Source: Betaproteobacteria bacterium
Lineage (GTDB): Bacteria; Pseudomonadota; Gammaproteobacteria; Burkholderiales; Rhodocyclaceae
Direction of reading: 5' to 3'
Assembly (NCBI GenBank): GCA_020621405.1
Contig: JAHRYN010000004.1
Coordinates: 83,618-147,617, forward strand
DNA length: 64,000 nt
Of this stretch, positions 16,508 to 23,832 are shown piece after piece. The position numbers and the translations under genes are program-made. The notes beneath the pieces were generated by a model. The model was not told the DNA's origin. It did no database searches and saw only the letters and a program-made list of their open reading frames with translations. Numbering within the stretch: the first letter of the stretch is position 1; each line of letters opens with the position of its first letter.

Positions 16508-17376
16508 ATACCGTCGAGGGGCGCGTCGTGTCGGCCCATGGCCGGCACTACATGGTGCGGCTGGACGACGGCCGCGTGCTGCAGGCTTTTCCGCGCGGCA
16601 AGCGTTCCGAGGTCGCGTGCGGCGACCGCGTGGACGTGTCGCTGCAGGCCGATCAGGCGCGCATCGAGAAGCTGCAAGAACGACGCAGCCTGCTCTACCG
16701 CAAGGACGCGTTCAAGGAAAAGACGGTCGCCGCCAACGTCGATCAGGTGGTCATCGTCACCGCCACCGAACCGGGCTTCAGCGGCGACCTGGTCGCCCGC
16801 ATCCTGCTCGCGCTCGAAGCGCAGGACGTCGAGGCGCTGATCGTGCTCAACAAGTGCGACCTCGCCGCCGGACTGCCGGCCGCGCGTGCCCAGCTGGCCG
16901 AATTCGCCGCCATGGGCTACCGCGTGCTCGAACTGTCGGCGCGCGGCGATCCGGCGCCGCTGGCGGAACATCTGAAGGGCCGGCTCAGCGTGCTGATCGG
17001 CCAGTCCGGCATGGGCAAGTCCACGCTGGTCAATGCGCTGATCCCCGGCGCCGCTGCCGCCACGCGCGAAATATCCGCCGCGCTCGATTCCGGCAAGCAC
17101 ACCACCACCTTCGCGCGGCTGTATGAGCTGCCCGGCGGCGGCGAGCTGATCGACAGCCCCGGCCTGCAGGAATTCGGCCTGTCCCATCTGAATGTCGGCG
17201 AACTGGAACAGGCTTTCCGCGACTTCCGCCCATATCTGGGCAAATGCCGTTTCCGCGACTGCGCGCACGACCGCGAACCCGACTGCGCGCTGCGCGGGCA
17301 CGTATCGCCCGGCCGGCTGGCGCTGTACCGGACCTTGCGTCAGGAAATTGCCAGCGCCGCGCGGCTCGACCGCTGA
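16504..17376 (+). CDS. rsgA: Ribosome small-subunit GTPase RsgA
   Basis: A 290-residue circularly permuted GTPase that helps mature the 30S subunit. An OB fold (about residues 1-70; EGRVVSAHGRHYMVRLDDGR) precedes the GTPase domain with G4 VLNKCDL, G1 GQSGMGKSTL and G3 DSPGLQEFG, in the permuted order G4-G5-G1-G3. A C-terminal zinc knuckle follows (CRFRDCAHDREPDCAL). The start is TTG at 16504, overlapping the stop of the preceding gene by four bases, which implies translational coupling. Confidence 0.96.
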   Translation: MNTVEGRVVSAHGRHYMVRLDDGRVLQAFPRGKRSEVACGDRVDVSLQADQARIEKLQERRSLLYRKDAFKEKTVAANVDQVVIVTATEPGFSGDLVARILLALEAQDVEALIVLNKCDLAAGLPAARAQLAEFAAMGYRVLELSARGDPAPLAEHLKGRLSVLIGQSGMGKSTLVNALIPGAAAATREISAALDSGKHTTTFARLYELPGGGELIDSPGLQEFGLSHLNVGELEQAFRDFRPYLGKCRFRDCAHDREPDCALRGHVSPGRLALYRTLRQEIASAARLDR

Positions 17377-17488
17377 CCCCGTTCCTGCGGGCCGCTCACG
17401 CCGGCAGGTAGTCCCCGTCCTACAGCCTCCGTGCCGCGCTGCGCTTAGCATTCGCGCGCATCTTCGCAAGACACCGGGACGGTCTTTC

Positions 17489-18373
17489 ATGATCAGGATG
17501 GGCGTGAACATTTCGCTGAGCTGCAACGTCGGCACGCCGGTCGAACTGGAATTGCGCCTGCTGCCGGCACAGACCTCGCAGCAGCGGATAGGCAGCGAAG
17601 TGTTGCTGGTGCCGGCTGGCGCGCGCGCGCTGCCGGTGCGGATCGGCCGTCACGGGCAGCGTCTGCTGGACGTGCAGGCTGCTGCGGGCACGCTGGAAAT
17701 CGCCTGCTCGGCGCTGGTCGACCTCAGCCCGCATTTCGCGGATCCCGCCTCGCTCGACGAAACGAGCGTCACTGATCTGCCGTTCGAGGTTCTGCCTTAC
17801 CTGCACGAAAGTCCGCTCTGTCCGACCGAGGCGATGACCCGTCTCGCCTACCGCACATTCGGCCGGATGCGGCCGGGCTACGCGCGCGTCGACACGCTCT
17901 GCGCCTGCGTGCGCGACCGCACCCGCTTCGATCCGTCGCTGGCCGGCGCCCCGAAATCGGCGCTCGACACACTGCTGGACAAGCGCGGTGCGAGCGAGCA
18001 TTTCGCGCAGCTGGCAATAGCGCTGTGCCGCGCACTGTTCATTCCGGCGCGTCTGGTCAGCACGGCGCGGCCGGACGACAACGGCCTGCATTACTGCATG
18101 GAAGCCTATGTCGGAGACCGCTGGTTCCTGTTCGATCCGACCGGACTCGCCCCTGCATGGAACCTGATCCGCATCGCCACCGGCCGCGACAGCGCCGACA
18201 TGCCCCCGGTCGGGCTGCACGGACTGAGCTATCACGGTGGATACCGGCTGACCATCACCGCGCTGCACGCCGCCCGCGGCGCACATGAAGCGACGATTCC
18301 CGACGGCGCGGCGGTGTCCATCGCAGCGCCGGAACGCACGGACGACCGGCAGGACCGCGCAAGCGCCGCATGA
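17489..18373 (+). CDS. Transglutaminase-like protein with catalytic Cys replaced by Ser
   Basis: A 294-residue protein with an N-terminal beta-rich region (1-110) and a C-terminal transglutaminase-like core. In related proteins the core reads GVCRDFAH; here it reads GASEHFAQ, so the nucleophile position is Ser169 (codon 17993-17995). The later His (LHYCMEAYV) and Asp (WFLFDPTG) positions are kept, as is the family tail IRIATGRDSADM. It is therefore likely to be a non-classical enzyme or a binding protein. No membrane segment or signal peptide is seen. It converges on the Anbu operon, which has an intact transglutaminase. The ATG at 17489 was chosen; ribosome binding is not obvious. Confidence 0.85.
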   Translation: MIRMGVNISLSCNVGTPVELELRLLPAQTSQQRIGSEVLLVPAGARALPVRIGRHGQRLLDVQAAAGTLEIACSALVDLSPHFADPASLDETSVTDLPFEVLPYLHESPLCPTEAMTRLAYRTFGRMRPGYARVDTLCACVRDRTRFDPSLAGAPKSALDTLLDKRGASEHFAQLAIALCRALFIPARLVSTARPDDNGLHYCMEAYVGDRWFLFDPTGLAPAWNLIRIATGRDSADMPPVGLHGLSYHGGYRLTITALHAARGAHEATIPDGAAVSIAAPERTDDRQDRASAA

Positions 18374-18407
18374 GCTGCGGCACCGGCCCCGACGATACAG
18401 AGTCAGA

Positions 18408-19139
18408 TCAGCCTGGTATCCAGTCCGGCGACGGCAGCGCGTGGAAGGCCTCGCGCAGGCTTTCGCCCCAGCGGGTGCGGATCATTTCGAAGTAGGCATT
18501 CTCGGCATCGATGCGGATGTTCGAGCACACCGCGAGCGCGTCCCGGCGCAGCACCAGCAGATCGAGCGGCAGGCCGACCGACAGGTTGGAGCGGATGGTC
18601 GAATCCATCGAGATCAGTGCGCATTTGGCGGCTTCGTCGAGCGAGGTTTCCGGGCGGATGACGCGATCGACGATGGGCTTGCCGTACTTGGCTTCGCCAA
18701 TCTGGAAATAGGGCGTGTCGCGCGTCGCCTCGATGAAATTGCCAGCCGCATAGATCTGGAACAGCCGCGGCTCCTCACCCAGTATCTGTCCGCCCAGGAT
18801 CAGCGAGGCATTGAACTCGATGCCGAACTCCTTCAGCGCCTCGGCGTCGCGCGCATGCACCTCACGCAGGCAGTCGCCGACATGGCGTGCCGCCTCGAAC
18901 ATGTTCGGTACGGTATGGAGATTGGGGCCCTCGGCCACCAGCCGTTCGCGCAGCAGGCTTACCAGCGTCTGCGTCAGCGCGAGGTTGCCGGCCGTCATCA
19001 GCACCAGCACGCGCTCGCCGGCGCGCTCGAACACGTTCATCTTGCGGAAGGTGTTGATGTGGTCGACACCGGCGTTGGTGCGCGAATCGGACAGGCAGAC
19101 CAGCCCGGCATCGAGCAGCATGCCCACGCAGTAAGTCAT
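18408..19139 (-). CDS. Anbu proteasome-like peptidase
   Basis: A 243-residue N-terminal nucleophile hydrolase of the Anbu family, the bacterial proteasome and HslV relative. After removal of Met1 the chain starts TYCVGMLLDAGLVCLSDSRT, giving Thr1 as nucleophile and Asp17, with a Lys near position 32 in NTFRKMNVF. No ATPase partner is nearby, as is usual for Anbu. It is the last gene of the operon ATP-grasp, alpha-E, transglutaminase, Anbu, with a 94-base gap after the transglutaminase. The ATG at 19139 is fixed by the need for an exposed Thr. The natural substrate of this family is not known. Confidence 0.93.
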   Translation of the reverse strand: MTYCVGMLLDAGLVCLSDSRTNAGVDHINTFRKMNVFERAGERVLVLMTAGNLALTQTLVSLLRERLVAEGPNLHTVPNMFEAARHVGDCLREVHARDAEALKEFGIEFNASLILGGQILGEEPRLFQIYAAGNFIEATRDTPYFQIGEAKYGKPIVDRVIRPETSLDEAAKCALISMDSTIRSNLSVGLPLDLLVLRRDALAVCSNIRIDAENAYFEMIRTRWGESLREAFHALPSPDWIPG

Positions 19140-19233
19140 GGCGGAAGTTCCGGCTTGAAGACAGAAAGGGATGCTGACGCAGCGCGCGCCACCCCCGTGA
19201 TCAGGGAGAAGGCGCGGCGACTGCGCGCGCAGA

Positions 19234-20046
19234 TCAGTGGGTGCGGATCGATACCCGCGTGAGGGTGGCGGCCGCCGATTCGCCGACACCGGCCAGACGC
19301 ACCGGACAGGCATCCATGTGGTCGCGTCCCACCGCGAGCCGGCAATAGCCGGTGCCAGCCAGCGCCCGCTCCAGCACATCGACGCTGACCCAGCCGGCTT
19401 CGCCGCCCGCGGCCGGGCCGCTGGCCAGCCAGACGTCGACCCAGGCGTGCGGCGCCGCCCATTCGCCGGCGGCATCGACCAGATAGCCGCTGACATAGCG
19501 CGCCGGCAGACCGGCGGCACGACAGCAGGCGATGAAGGCGTGCGCGATGTCGGCGCTGCATCCGCGCCCCGCTTCCAGCGCACTGGACGCACCGGCCGGC
19601 GGCAGGCACTCGGGCTGATGGCGGACCGCGCCGCAGACCGCGCCGCTCAGGTCCAGCAGTTCGCCCACGGTATCGCGCCGGGCACGCAGATGGCTGGCCG
19701 CCATCGCACGCGCCTGCTCGTCCGCCTCGGTCAGGTGGCTGGTGGCCAGATAGGACAGCGGCGACAGCGTGCCGGCGTCGCGTGGCATCCACGCCACGTC
19801 GTCGGTCATGCGCACCGTACCGCTGACGACGATGGACACCTCGCGATGCGGACGATCGAGCGTCAGCAGATGGCCGACGTTGCCATGCGCGTCGATGGCA
19901 CGACGGACGCTGCCCGGCGCCTGCACGCGCCAGGCCAGCGCGCGCTGCGTCGAATCCTCGCGCGGCGTCAGACGCAGTTGCTGGATGCTGTAATTGACCG
20001 GGCTGGCGTAGCGCAGCGTGGTTTCGTGATGGATATCGAGCAGCAT
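19234..20046 (-). CDS. Transglutaminase-like cysteine peptidase/amidase
   Basis: A 270-residue protein with an N-terminal bacterial transglutaminase beta domain (LLDIHHETTLRYASPV at the start) and a transglutaminase-like core with an intact triad: Cys163 in GRGCSADIAHAF, His200 in PHAWVDVWL and Asp223 in GWVSVDVLE. The conserved PARYVSGYL is present. Families of this type travel with ATP-grasp and alpha-E proteins, where they are thought to cut or remodel a peptide or amide product. It starts 10 bases after the alpha-E stop in the same operon. Confidence 0.93.
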   Translation of the reverse strand: MLLDIHHETTLRYASPVNYSIQQLRLTPREDSTQRALAWRVQAPGSVRRAIDAHGNVGHLLTLDRPHREVSIVVSGTVRMTDDVAWMPRDAGTLSPLSYLATSHLTEADEQARAMAASHLRARRDTVGELLDLSGAVCGAVRHQPECLPPAGASSALEAGRGCSADIAHAFIACCRAAGLPARYVSGYLVDAAGEWAAPHAWVDVWLASGPAAGGEAGWVSVDVLERALAGTGYCRLAVGRDHMDACPVRLAGVGESAAATLTRVSIRTH

Positions 20047-20056
20047 GGCGATCTCC

Positions 20057-21007
20057 TCAGCTGGATGACATCGGGACCAGGAAGTCGTCCGAAATGCGGT
20101 TGCCCAGATCGTTGGCGCGCACGATGAACTGGGTCAGGTATTCGTGCAGGCCGCGCGCGAACACGTCCTCGATGCGACCGAAGCGGAGATTGGCTTCCAG
20201 TTCCCCGGCACGGCGTTCGGTTTCGGTCGACCGGTAGTTCGACACCGCGAGCAGGTTTTCGTGCACCTCGCCCATGCTGGTGCGCAGCGAACGCGGCATC
20301 TGGTCGTTCAGGATCAGCAGCTCGGCAACCTTCACCGGCGTGATCAGGTCGCGATAGACCTTGCGATACACCTCAAAGGCGGACACCGAACGCAGCAGCG
20401 CGCTCCATTGATAATAGTCGGCGGCTTCGTCGGGCGGTGCCGCGCCATCGACCAGCATGTGGTACTTGACGTCGATGAAGCGCGCAGTGGCGTCGGCGCG
20501 TTCCAGGAAGGTACCCAGCCGGATGAAGTGGAAGGCCTCGTCGCGCAGCATGGTGCCCAGCGTGACGCCGCGCGACAGGTGGGAACGGAACTTCACCCAC
20601 TCGAAGAACTCGCCGATCTCGCTGCCGGCCAGCTTCCAGTGCGGGTAGTCGCGCATCTTCAGCCAGGTGTCGTTGGTGGTTTCCCACATTTCCGACGTGA
20701 TGGTGCCGCGCACGGCATGCGCATTCTCGCGTGCCATGCGCAGGCAGCTCAGGATGGACGATGGATTGGTGCCGTCGAACACCATGAATTCGAGCACGGC
20801 ATCCATCGTGGCCGCCGGGTGCTTGACGCGGAAGGCGTCCTCGAGCCCGGTGATGGACAGCGTGGCGCCCCAGCCGGCATCGACGCCACCGTCGGCCTGC
20901 GGCACCATGGACATGCGGTAATTCACGTCCAGCATGCGGGCGATGTTTTCGGCGCGCTCGATGTAGCGCGACATCCAGAAAAGATGGTCTGCGGTACGGC
21001 TCAGCAT
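20057..21007 (-). CDS. Alpha-E domain protein
   Basis: A 316-residue all-helical protein of the alpha-E family, recognisable by its start MLSRTADHLFWMSRYIERAE and by SEMWETTNDTWLKMRDYPHW. It is the standard companion of the circularly permuted ATP-grasp protein next to it and its biochemical role is not settled. The ATG lies two bases after the ATP-grasp stop; GGAGG inside the end of the ATP-grasp gene serves as its ribosome binding site. It is followed by the transglutaminase gene in the same operon. Confidence 0.94.
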   Translation of the reverse strand: MLSRTADHLFWMSRYIERAENIARMLDVNYRMSMVPQADGGVDAGWGATLSITGLEDAFRVKHPAATMDAVLEFMVFDGTNPSSILSCLRMARENAHAVRGTITSEMWETTNDTWLKMRDYPHWKLAGSEIGEFFEWVKFRSHLSRGVTLGTMLRDEAFHFIRLGTFLERADATARFIDVKYHMLVDGAAPPDEAADYYQWSALLRSVSAFEVYRKVYRDLITPVKVAELLILNDQMPRSLRTSMGEVHENLLAVSNYRSTETERRAGELEANLRFGRIEDVFARGLHEYLTQFIVRANDLGNRISDDFLVPMSSS

Positions 21008-21009
21008 GA

Positions 21010-22431
21010 TCAGACCTCCAGAACCCAGGTGTCCTTGGTGCCGCCGCCCTGCGACGAATTCACCACCAGAGAGCCTTCGCGCAGCGCGACGCGGGTCAGG
21101 CCGCCGGGCACCATATTGATGTCCTTGCCCGACAGCACGAACGGGCGAAGGTCGATGTGACGCGGCGCGATGCCGGCGTCGACGAAAGTCGGGCAGGCAG
21201 AAAGCGCAAGGGTCGGCTGAGCGATGTAGCGCTCGGGCGACTCGATGATGAGCTGCCGGAAGCGCTCGATCTCGTCCTTCGACGCACGCGGACCGATCAG
21301 CATGCCGTAGCCGCCTGCGCCGTGCGTTTCCTTGACCACCAGCTCGTCGAGATGGGCCAGCACATAGGCCAGATCCTCCTTCTTGCGGCACATGAAGGTC
21401 GGCACGTTGTTCAGCAGCGGTTCCTCGCCGAGGTAGAAGCGGATCATGTCCGGGACGTAGGGGTAGATCGACTTGTCGTCCGCCACACCGGTACCGATGG
21501 CGTTGGCCAGCGTGACCCGGCCGGCGCGATAGACCTGCAGCAAGCCGGGCACACCCAGCATCGAATCCGGACGGAAGGCCAGCGGATCGAGGAAATCGTC
21601 GTCGATCCGCCGGTAGATCACATCGACCCGGCGCGGACCCTGCGTGGTGCGCATGAACAGCTGCTCATCGCGCACGAACAGGTCCTGCCCCTCGACCAGC
21701 TCGACGCCCATCTGCTGGGCCAGGAAGGCATGTTCGAAGTAGGCTGAGTTGTAGGCGCCCGGCGTCAGCACCGCCACCGTCGGATCGGTAACACCGATCG
21801 GCGCGACCGCACGCAGGTTGGCCAGCAGCATGTCCGGGTAGTGCTCGACCGGCGCCACGCGATAGCGCGAGAACAGCTCGGGGAACAGCCGCATCATCAT
21901 GCGGCGGTCTTCCAGCATGTAGGACACGCCCGAAGGCACGCGCAGGTTGTCCTCCAGCACGTAGAACTCGCCGGCACCGGCGCGCACCACGTCGACGCCG
22001 GCGATGTGCGCGTAGATGCCGCCCGGCACGTCCACACCCTGCATTTCCGGCCGGTACTGGCTGTTCGACAGTATCTGCTCGGCCGGCACCTTGCCCGCCT
22101 TGATGATCTCGTGGTCGTGATAGACGTCGTGCAGGAACATGTTGAGCGCCTTCACGCGCTGGCGCAGGCCGGCGGCGAGCTGCTTCCATTCCTGTGCGGG
22201 AATGATGCGCGGCACGACGTCAAACGGAATCAGGCGTTCCTTGCCCTCTTCCTCGCCATAGACCGCGAAGGTGATGCCGACCCGGTGGAACACCAGGTCT
22301 GCTTCGGCACGTTTCTGGGCGATACGCTCCGGAGGCGTTTCTGCCAGCCACTTCTTGTAGCCGGCGTAATGACCGCGCACCGAACCGTCGGCGCCGTTCA
22401 TTTCGTCATAGATCGAGGACGGGTTTGCCAT
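21010..22431 (-). CDS. Circularly permuted ATP-grasp protein
   Basis: A 473-residue protein of the circularly permuted ATP-grasp type 2 family, predicted amide- or peptide-bond-forming ligase. Family blocks are clear: YILEDNLRVPSGVSYMLE-like FYVLEDNLRVPSGVSYML, DVIYRRIDDDFLDPLAF, NAIGTGVADDKSIYPYVP and KETHGAGGYGMLIGP. Product and substrate are unknown for the family in vivo. It is the first gene of the Anbu operon and lies downstream of the candidate sigma-54 promoter and NtrC-like site. Confidence 0.94.
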   Translation of the reverse strand: MANPSSIYDEMNGADGSVRGHYAGYKKWLAETPPERIAQKRAEADLVFHRVGITFAVYGEEEGKERLIPFDVVPRIIPAQEWKQLAAGLRQRVKALNMFLHDVYHDHEIIKAGKVPAEQILSNSQYRPEMQGVDVPGGIYAHIAGVDVVRAGAGEFYVLEDNLRVPSGVSYMLEDRRMMMRLFPELFSRYRVAPVEHYPDMLLANLRAVAPIGVTDPTVAVLTPGAYNSAYFEHAFLAQQMGVELVEGQDLFVRDEQLFMRTTQGPRRVDVIYRRIDDDFLDPLAFRPDSMLGVPGLLQVYRAGRVTLANAIGTGVADDKSIYPYVPDMIRFYLGEEPLLNNVPTFMCRKKEDLAYVLAHLDELVVKETHGAGGYGMLIGPRASKDEIERFRQLIIESPERYIAQPTLALSACPTFVDAGIAPRHIDLRPFVLSGKDINMVPGGLTRVALREGSLVVNSSQGGGTKDTWVLEV

Positions 22432-22476
22432 GATCGCGTTGTCTCGAGTGATTGTTTGGCGCTGTAACCCTCCTTC

Positions 22477-22492
22477 AGCGAAAAATGTGCCA
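22477..22492 (-). promoter_or_regulatory. Candidate sigma-54 (-24/-12) promoter of the Anbu operon
   Basis: The minus strand reads TGGCACATTTTTCGCT. The invariant GG and GC are exactly 10 bases apart, the -24 block TGGCAC is perfect, and the -12 block TCGCT has one difference from TTGCT. The predicted start is near 22467, about 35 bases before the ATP-grasp ATG. An NtrC-type palindrome is centred about 84 bases upstream of that start. Confidence 0.65.
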
Positions 22493-22542
22493 TGCAGGAA
22501 ACCCTCACCGGATCGGGAAACCTTGGCATTTGCAGGGGTTTA

Positions 22543-22559
22543 TGCACCATCAGGGTGCG
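22543..22559 (-). promoter_or_regulatory. NtrC-like enhancer site upstream of the Anbu operon
   Basis: GCACC and GGTGC form a perfect inverted repeat with five bases between, matching the known NtrC consensus TGCACC-N5-GGTGCA at all but one outer base. A further half-site GGTGCA lies at 22576-22581, about two helical turns away, so a tandem arrangement is possible. The position relative to the sigma-54 element is suitable for an enhancer. Confidence 0.6.
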
Positions 22560-22591
22560 CAAACCGGGTTCATCTGGTGCAGCCGCCGTAA

Positions 22592-22624
22592 ACGAAAACG
22601 CCCCGCACAAGGCGGGGCGTTTCG
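22592..22624 (-). terminator. Rho-independent terminator of the thiolase gene
   Basis: A 9-bp stem ACGCCCCGC/GCGGGGCGT with a five-base loop is followed on the minus strand by TTTT. It lies 25 bases past the thiolase stop and insulates the Anbu operon from thiolase transcription. Confidence 0.85.
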
Positions 22625-22644
22625 TCAGCGGAAAAGCCTGGGGA

Positions 22645-23832
22645 TCAGATGCGCTCGATGATCCCTGCGATGCCCTGACCACCACCGATACACATGGTGA
22701 TCAGGCCATAGCGGCCGCCGGTGCGCTGCAGCTCGTACAGGCACTTGACGGTCAGGATGGCACCGGTAGCTCCGACCGGGTGACCGAGACCGACGGCACC
22801 GCCGTTCACGTTCACCTTGGCCGGGTTCAGACCCAGCTCGCGGCTGACGCACAGCGCCTGCACGGCGAAGGCTTCGTTCGACTCGATGATGTCCAGATCG
22901 TCCGCCTTCAGGCCGGCGCGCTGCAGCGCCAGACGGACGGCGGGGATCGGACCGGTACCCATGAGACTCGGATCGACACCGGCCACGGCGTAGGACACCA
23001 GGCGGGCCAGCGGCTTGGCGCCGGCACGTGCGGCGGCACCGGCTTCCATCATGACGATGGCGCCAGCGCCGTCGTTGATGCCGGACGCGTTGCCGGCCGT
23101 AACCGAACCGTCCTTCTTGAACACCGGGCGCAGTTTGGCCATGCCTTCGAGCGTGGCGTCACGGCGGAAGTGCTCGTCGGTGTCGATGACCGTCGTGCCC
23201 TTCTTGGTCTGCACTTCGAGCGGCGCGATCTGCGACTTGAAGTGGCCGGCGTCGACGGCTGCAGCGGCGCGGCGGTGCGATTCAACGGCAAACGCATCCT
23301 GGTCTTCGCGGCTGATGCCGTACTGGCTGGCGATGTTCTCGGCCGTAATGCCCATGTGCGTGGCTTCGAACGGATCCGTCAGCGCACCGACCATCATGTC
23401 GATCAGCTTGGTGTCGTTCATGCGGGCGCCCCAGCGGGCTGCCGGCATCAGGTAGCCGCCACGGCTCATCGTTTCGACGCCGCCGCCGACTGCGCAGTCC
23501 GCGTCGCCGAGCTGGATCGCATTGGCGGCCGACACGATGGCCTGGAAGCCCGAACCGCACAGGCGATTGACGCCCATTGCGCAGGATTCCTTGGACATGC
23601 CCGCGGTCAGTGCCACCACGCGCGACACATACATGTCGCGTGCTTCGGTGTGGATCACGTTGCCGAACACCAGGTGCTGCGCTTCCTTGGCGTCGATGCC
23701 TGCACGTGCGAAAGCAGTCTTCACTGCGTGCGCGCCCAGATCACAGGCCGTGAAATCCTTCAGCGAACCGCCGTAAGCACCGATCGGCGTACGCGCTGCA
23801 CCCACGATCACAACTTCTCTCTTCTCAGCCAT
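22645..23832 (-). CDS. Acetyl-CoA acetyltransferase / beta-ketothiolase (BktB-like)
   Basis: A 395-residue biosynthetic-type thiolase that condenses two acyl-CoA units or cleaves 3-ketoacyl-CoA. The nucleophile Cys92 lies in [10 protein letters not shown], the His in [11 protein letters not shown] and the second Cys in MCIGGGQG. The stretch [17 protein letters not shown] resembles BktB more than PhaA, so use in polyhydroxyalkanoate synthesis or in beta-oxidation are both possible. No phaB or phaC is adjacent. The ATG at 23832 has GGGAGG seven bases upstream; an in-frame start three codons earlier lies across the Shine-Dalgarno and is unlikely. Confidence 0.92.

Follow-up and report, generated by a model that had tools for sequence, protein, structure and literature searches.

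We analyzed a 64-kb stretch of DNA (the window) from the 3.8-Mb genome of a betaproteobacterium whose genus we take as Methyloversatilis. The subject is a four-gene operon in this window that encodes the proteasome-like subunit Anbu and that is preceded by a candidate NtrC/sigma-54 promoter. Open reading frame translations and a Pfam scan gave four genes in series on the minus strand. The first (22431-21010) encodes a circularly permuted ATP-grasp ligase of 473 residues (PF14403, 572 bits; PF04174, 529 bits) that matches PDB 3n6x (E 1.8e-233). The second (21007-20057) encodes an alpha-E helical protein of 316 residues (PF04168, 342 bits when scanned with an upstream extension), and the third (20046-19234) a transglutaminase-like protein of 270 residues (PF08379 and PF01841). 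The fourth (19139-18408) encodes Anbu, which has 243 residues, a Met-Thr N-terminus, and T1, D17 and K32 (residue numbering per PMC6376114). Anbu matched five PDB sequences; the best match was a designed Anbu (E 1.1e-103) and the remaining four had E values from 1.8e-82 to 2.5e-74. The intergenic gaps are 2, 10 and 94 bases in operon order, and Anbu follows the transglutaminase gene in 13 of 13 members of the genus. A first-pass annotation, made from the sequence alone, had placed these four genes in one operon, and gene order and family matches agree with that.

Upstream of the ATP-grasp gene, on the same strand, there is a sigma-54 -24/-12 element, TGGCACATTTTTCGCT (22492-22477), 45 bases 5' of the start codon. 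As first described, its GG (22491-22490) and GC (22479-22478) have exactly ten bases between them. The element has one mismatch to TGGCAC-N5-TTGCW, located in TTGC, and the predicted transcript start is near 22467. Farther upstream is an NtrC-type palindrome, GCACC-CTGAT-GGTGC, that fits the published NtrC consensus TGCACCAnnnTGGTGCA (PMC8743547). The exact GCACC-N5-GGTGC match had been recognised before, with boundaries (22559-22543) one base too wide on each side; the 15-mer is at 22558-22544. The additional half-site, earlier placed at a distance of two turns, reads TGCACCA (22581-22575) and stands 22 bases farther upstream than the palindrome.

Taken singly, the sigma-54 element and the palindrome are each weak evidence, being near chance frequency. 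The window contains 26 sigma-54-like sites with at most two mismatches (36 expected), and two that are as good as the one upstream of the operon (one mismatch). The exact palindrome has a single match in the window, and there are 12 palindromes with at most one mismatch (7.0 expected). The weight therefore rests on the pair and on its conservation. The composite pattern of the two elements had one match in the whole genome, at this operon. When the composite was loosened and applied to the 13 genomes of the genus, 12 genomes had matches, 16 in all, and 12 of these 16 lay at this promoter; a reversed-pattern control gave 1. Across 61 genomes of the family, a stricter composite gave 10 matches in 9 genomes (reversed control, 0). 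Four of these 10 precede the ATP-grasp gene of this operon. The other six precede genes for three molybdopterin oxidoreductases, a NirB-like reductase, a DctP-type binding protein and a TonB-type receptor. The molybdopterin oxidoreductase family, which is the level at which we placed these three, includes assimilatory nitrate reductase and also other enzymes, for example formate dehydrogenase.

We found that the pair is conserved throughout the genus. The palindrome, in its exact form, and the sigma-54 element were both present in 13 of 13 species. The starts of the two elements were exactly 66 bases apart in 12 of these, and the distance from the start of the sigma-54 element to the start codon varied from 54 to 70. 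The thirteenth species (locus L015, genome G002) has kept both elements, at a distance of 250 bases that contains about 184 extra bases (about 2977-3227 of L015). This species offers a natural test of enhancer distance. We aligned the promoters of the other 12 species, leaving out the longer-spaced one. The arms of the palindrome were invariant at 10 of 10 positions and its core at 1 of 5, which is the pattern of a putative two-fold binding site under selection. The sigma-54 element was invariant at 15 of 16 positions and the half-site TGCACCA in 12 of 12 promoters; the stretch between the elements was invariant at 11 of 48 positions. We also applied a strict composite criterion: 10 of 12 sigma-54 positions with GG-N10-GC, and a palindrome with at most one mismatch 45-260 bases upstream. 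In the genus, this pattern was found in 13 of 13 sense sequences, in none of the antisense sequences, in none of 40 shuffles and in 0 of 390 other windows.

For a wider sample we collected 121 loci, 80 of them named, and removed two with short upstream sequence and four duplicates, leaving 115. Among the species outside the genus, the strict composite was found at 29 of 102 loci in the sense orientation, compared to 2 in antisense, none in 40 shuffles and 9 of 7885 other windows. Part of the variation lies at the -12 position. Of 11 loci whose genera we take to be Oxalobacteraceae, 10 have TTGA or TTGT where TTGC would stand (typically TGGCACG-N4-TTGAT). We therefore used a relaxed sigma-54 matrix with the -12 base freed, a post hoc choice, and sought the element within -130 to +30. 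It was found in 93 of 115 upstream regions; among 12246 control windows, 386 (3.2%) had it. When the loci were grouped at 85% protein identity, 50 of 65 clusters had the element, and 25 of 65 had a palindrome with at most one mismatch as well. No element was found even with the relaxed matrix in 22 of the 115 loci, Polynucleobacter among them. As a separate observation, TTGA or TTGT at -12 occurred in 15 of the 93 elements (L100-L104, L107-L109, L111, L113, L129 and others), an unusual lineage-wide departure. In addition, two Polynucleobacter loci (L120, L121) have NtrC-like repeats, GCACTAATTCGGTGC and GCACCAATAAAGTGC, upstream of the ATP-grasp gene and no scored sigma-54 element; they may have a degenerate element, GG-N10-GT, close to the start.

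The spacing between enhancer and promoter is apparently helically phased. Outside the genus, the distances clustered near 66-68, 75-79, 85-89 and 98-100. A Rayleigh test with a period of 10.5 gave a value of 0.003 (n=31; a single distance per locus, none above 160), with a phase that matches the 66 of the genus. With loci grouped at 85% identity, a representative of the genus among them, the value was 0.0005 (n=24). Because the test was post hoc, periods from 10 to 11.5 were about equally good and relatedness was only partly removed, we take phasing as supporting evidence only.

The same genome provides points of comparison. It contains 12 sites with TGCACC-N5-GGTGC (reversed control, 0), and 4 of the 12 lie 30-250 bases upstream of a sigma-54-like site with a score of at least 9. 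The two shortest distances, 66 and 90, are those at this operon and at glnA, a classical NtrC target. A complete ntrC (700 bits) is next to glnA, and rpoN is present in one copy (a single TIGR02395 match above the cut-off). A set of genes ahead of amtB, among them a PII gene named from reading its translation, has a palindrome with one mismatch and, at a distance of 120 bases, TGGCATGGTCTGTGCA. In the remaining two of the four, L078 (G000:C5) and L082 (G000:C12), the sigma-54-like site follows the palindrome at 122 and 175 bases; they are possible further members of the nitrogen regulon. There is also a second cluster (L044 9129-12571; G000:C5, about 47.1-50.6 kb) that has an ATP-grasp/alpha-E fusion followed by a transglutaminase. 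The composite was found at 0 of the 19 loci of this fused paralogue that we examined; from -450 to +150, 3 of the 19 had an isolated sigma-54-like match and 1 had an isolated palindrome.

We compared the genes that accompany the switch in those named loci whose downstream sequence reached 6 kb or more (n=61), using the relaxed sigma-54 element; a divergent or remote Anbu gene escapes detection in this count. Both the element and Anbu were present in 29 loci and neither in 5; 20 loci had only the element and 7 only Anbu. Because the element is found on operons that lack Anbu, control appears to track the ATP-grasp/alpha-E core. On the whole, these counts suggest that the regulated and conserved unit is this core, often together with the transglutaminase, and that Anbu is an optional partner. 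Thus, the question shifts from Anbu to the ATP-grasp/alpha-E pair. Five of the loci without Anbu (L132, L134, L135, L156 and L159) have a second, large protein (1139-1212 residues), which coarse clustering groups with alpha-E and transglutaminase. Of these five, only L135 has the element within -130; in L156 it is at -260 and in L159 at -271.

The alpha-E protein is an internal duplication. Its N- and C-terminal halves align with each other (hhalign probability 98.8, E 5.4e-17), and each half contains E-R-A-(E/D)-x3-R: E17, R18, A19, E20 and R24 in the first, and E169, R170, A171, D172 and R176 in the second. Each of these residues is kept in 92-100% of sequences (n=61). A model built from the 61 aligned sequences had a mean predicted local distance difference test score (pLDDT) of 89.6 and a predicted template modelling score (pTM) of 0.89; a fold search of the PDB with this model gave no significant match.

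Related clusters have been studied in two other bacteria, and what follows is limited to the available passages of the papers cited. Pseudomonas putida KT2440 has the same types of genes at PP_2685-PP_2688 (a proteasome beta-type subunit, a transglutaminase and a circularly permuted ATP-grasp type 2 protein). P. putida Anbu is described as induced under nitrogen limitation, cited from Hervas 2008 (PMC5666114, PMC6376114). PP_2686-2688 were 11- to 15-fold up under nitrogen limitation in the wild type and 17- to 37-fold up in a relA/spoT mutant, with NtrB/NtrC as the putative regulator (PMC7801951). A promoter piece of PP_2688 was induced 3.7-fold on nitrogen depletion, and mRNA of PP_2685 and PP_2688 rose on nitrate compared to ammonium by log2 4.44 and 3.99 (PMC8050072). 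In addition, PP2685-2687 are listed as raised in nitrogen-related comparisons (PMC3325844). Burkholderia cenocepacia H111 has DUF404/DUF407 and DUF403 proteins with transglutaminases (I35_5080-5083, BCAM1233-1236) in a cluster that belongs to the NtrC/sigma-54 regulon. In its ntrC mutant, the DUF404/407, DUF403 and two transglutaminase genes are listed at -8.2, -9.4, -9.4 and -6.0 (PMC5491218). These four listed genes differ from those of the window in that one encodes a second, large transglutaminase and none encodes Anbu; the five Anbu-less loci with a large protein resemble this cluster. A COG3484 proteasome-type protease has been predicted in the sigma-54 regulon (PMC12316311), in a passage that names no NtrC site and sees the protein as a degrader of misfolded proteins. 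The structural studies of Anbu (PMC5666114, PMC6376114) describe a four-gene operon of the same makeup, with no promoter analysis in the passages available. Given the published nitrogen induction of the P. putida and B. cenocepacia clusters, the operon in the window joins an already known type.

In a literature search, mostly without subscription papers, we recognised, among the matches listed, no paper on an NtrC site at Anbu operons or on how such a site is spaced or conserved. It is quite possible that Hervas 2009 describes one in P. putida.

Based on these results, the operon is very probably under an NtrC/sigma-54 nitrogen-starvation switch, with the ATP-grasp/alpha-E core as the conserved unit and Anbu as an optional member. 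We infer NtrC binding, use of sigma-54 and nitrogen induction in this organism. The sigma-54 promoter would drive all four genes. When ammonium is short, phosphorylated NtrC would bind the palindrome and probably also the half-site upstream of it. NtrC would then loop across the 66 bases from a fixed face of the helix and activate sigma-54 RNA polymerase in its closed complex, and the same is expected at glnA; this mechanism follows established knowledge of NtrC and sigma-54. The first-pass annotation had read the two elements as control by nitrogen shortage and had mentioned reports of a link between Anbu and nitrogen limitation. The first is supported by the conserved pair, the pair at glnA, the presence of ntrC and rpoN, the molybdopterin oxidoreductase and NirB-like genes behind the composite in the family and the published control in P. 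putida and B. cenocepacia; the second is published for P. putida.

Several findings weigh against this switch or limit its reach. Outside the genus, the sigma-54 element together with an NtrC site (at most one mismatch) is found in a minority of loci, as given above. We also looked at 29 distant orthologues from across the class (49-57% identity, except L167 at 70%): a sigma-54-like site was present in only 6 (background 2.1%) and the pair in none. Thus conservation of both elements among orthologues held in the genus and did not extend this far, and the predicted arrangement is a feature of one clade and not of every such operon. In P. putida, which we have likened by genes and expression and not by promoter sequence, PP_2686-2688 were still 14- to 20-fold up in an rpoN mutant, as were urtA-D, which are assigned to NtrB/NtrC; Anbu itself (PP_2685) was just 1.1-fold in the wild type (PMC7801951). 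A stretch of 200-300 bp upstream of PP_2685 was constitutive in a reporter, and so was that of glnK (PMC8050072). Finally, in the passages available, Anbu and its operon are described as unchanged in expression under various other conditions (PMC5666114).

The likeliest role of the operon is nitrogen salvage, a tentative assignment. ATP-grasp ligases make amide bonds. The ATP-grasp/alpha-E pair might ligate a substrate that bears an amine or a carboxyl group to form an amide. This product, or damaged peptides, might then be the target of the transglutaminase-like enzyme and of Anbu, which has the Ntn-hydrolase fold, and usable nitrogen would be set free. The timing of expression under starvation would favor scavenging over storage. 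It is possible, and we propose it with reservation, that the nitrogen-controlled unit is the ATP-grasp/alpha-E core and not Anbu. That is, these genes might form an unrecognised Ntr salvage system of beta-proteobacteria, in which an amide intermediate is opened by exchangeable hydrolases (Anbu, small or large transglutaminase) and the duplicated alpha-E protein is a substrate-binding scaffold. To our knowledge, Anbu has been discussed as an ancestor-like proteasome without a known substrate. The conserved switch, which is absent from the fused paralogue, tells when the system would be needed and makes ammonium depletion the condition for a substrate hunt.

It is also conceivable, if rather unlikely, that a weak constitutive promoter in the gap before Anbu serves this gene alone and that NtrC mainly controls the three enzyme genes. 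The gap of 94 bases leaves room for this, and the P. putida reporter and the 1.1-fold value for PP_2685 agree with it. By eye, TAACAT is present in the gap (window 19139-19234; L196-L206) of 8 of 13 species, not in the window itself. However, the gap is poorly conserved in the genus, and mRNA of PP_2685 rose together with that of PP_2688 in another study (PMC8050072). We found no sigma-70-type site in 18250-22800, which is weak evidence because shuffled sequences average only 0.7 such sites.

The first-pass annotation had suggested that ATP-grasp/alpha-E builds a nitrogen store or a modified peptide that Anbu and the transglutaminase later degrade. We found no support for this sequence of events and consider it improbable. 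In relatives, the genes rise in nitrogen shortage, when stores would be consumed, and that is the wrong time for building one. In addition, published work detected no peptidase activity of Anbu (PMC6376114). Because no Anbu was found in the downstream stretch (6 kb or more) of 20 out of 49 operons with the sigma-54 element, a fixed pair that makes a store and then degrades it is not the conserved unit. What speaks for a store is that the operon holds genes for both synthesis and hydrolysis, that the ligase family forms amides, and that the Yersinia bercovieri ATP-grasp enzyme releases phosphate from ATP (PMC6376114).

It is more doubtful still that the sigma-54 promoter is real and that another enhancer-binding protein reads the GCACC palindrome. 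There would be candidates, as the central domain of the ntrC model has matches at 16 places in the genome besides ntrC. Against them stand the fit of the palindrome to the published NtrC consensus (PMC8743547), the same pair at glnA and at molybdopterin oxidoreductase and NirB-like genes in the family, and the reported loss of expression of the related cluster in the B. cenocepacia ntrC mutant. Finally, that the elements are chance look-alikes, with the operon constitutive or read through from the upstream thiolase gene (end at 22645), fits the near-chance frequency of each element and the description of Anbu as constitutive at a moderate level (PMC5666114, as far as available), and is extremely unlikely given the conserved pair with its invariant arms and variable core, the near-zero controls, the lack of a sigma-70-type site in the region searched, though few were expected, and a terminator-like hairpin 3' of the thiolase gene (22614-22599, minus strand).

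The NtrC/sigma-54 switch thus stands as the favored account. The hairpin has a lookalike sequence in the genus alignment and probably insulates the operon from the thiolase gene. At the other end of the operon, a further transglutaminase-core gene (PF01841) lies at 17192-18373 on the plus strand, convergent with Anbu; the two stop codons are 34 bases apart, and its true start is probably further in. In L015, at 1090-1520, there are repeats with inverted-repeat arms between the ATP-grasp and alpha-E genes that look like repetitive extragenic palindromic (REP) sequences.

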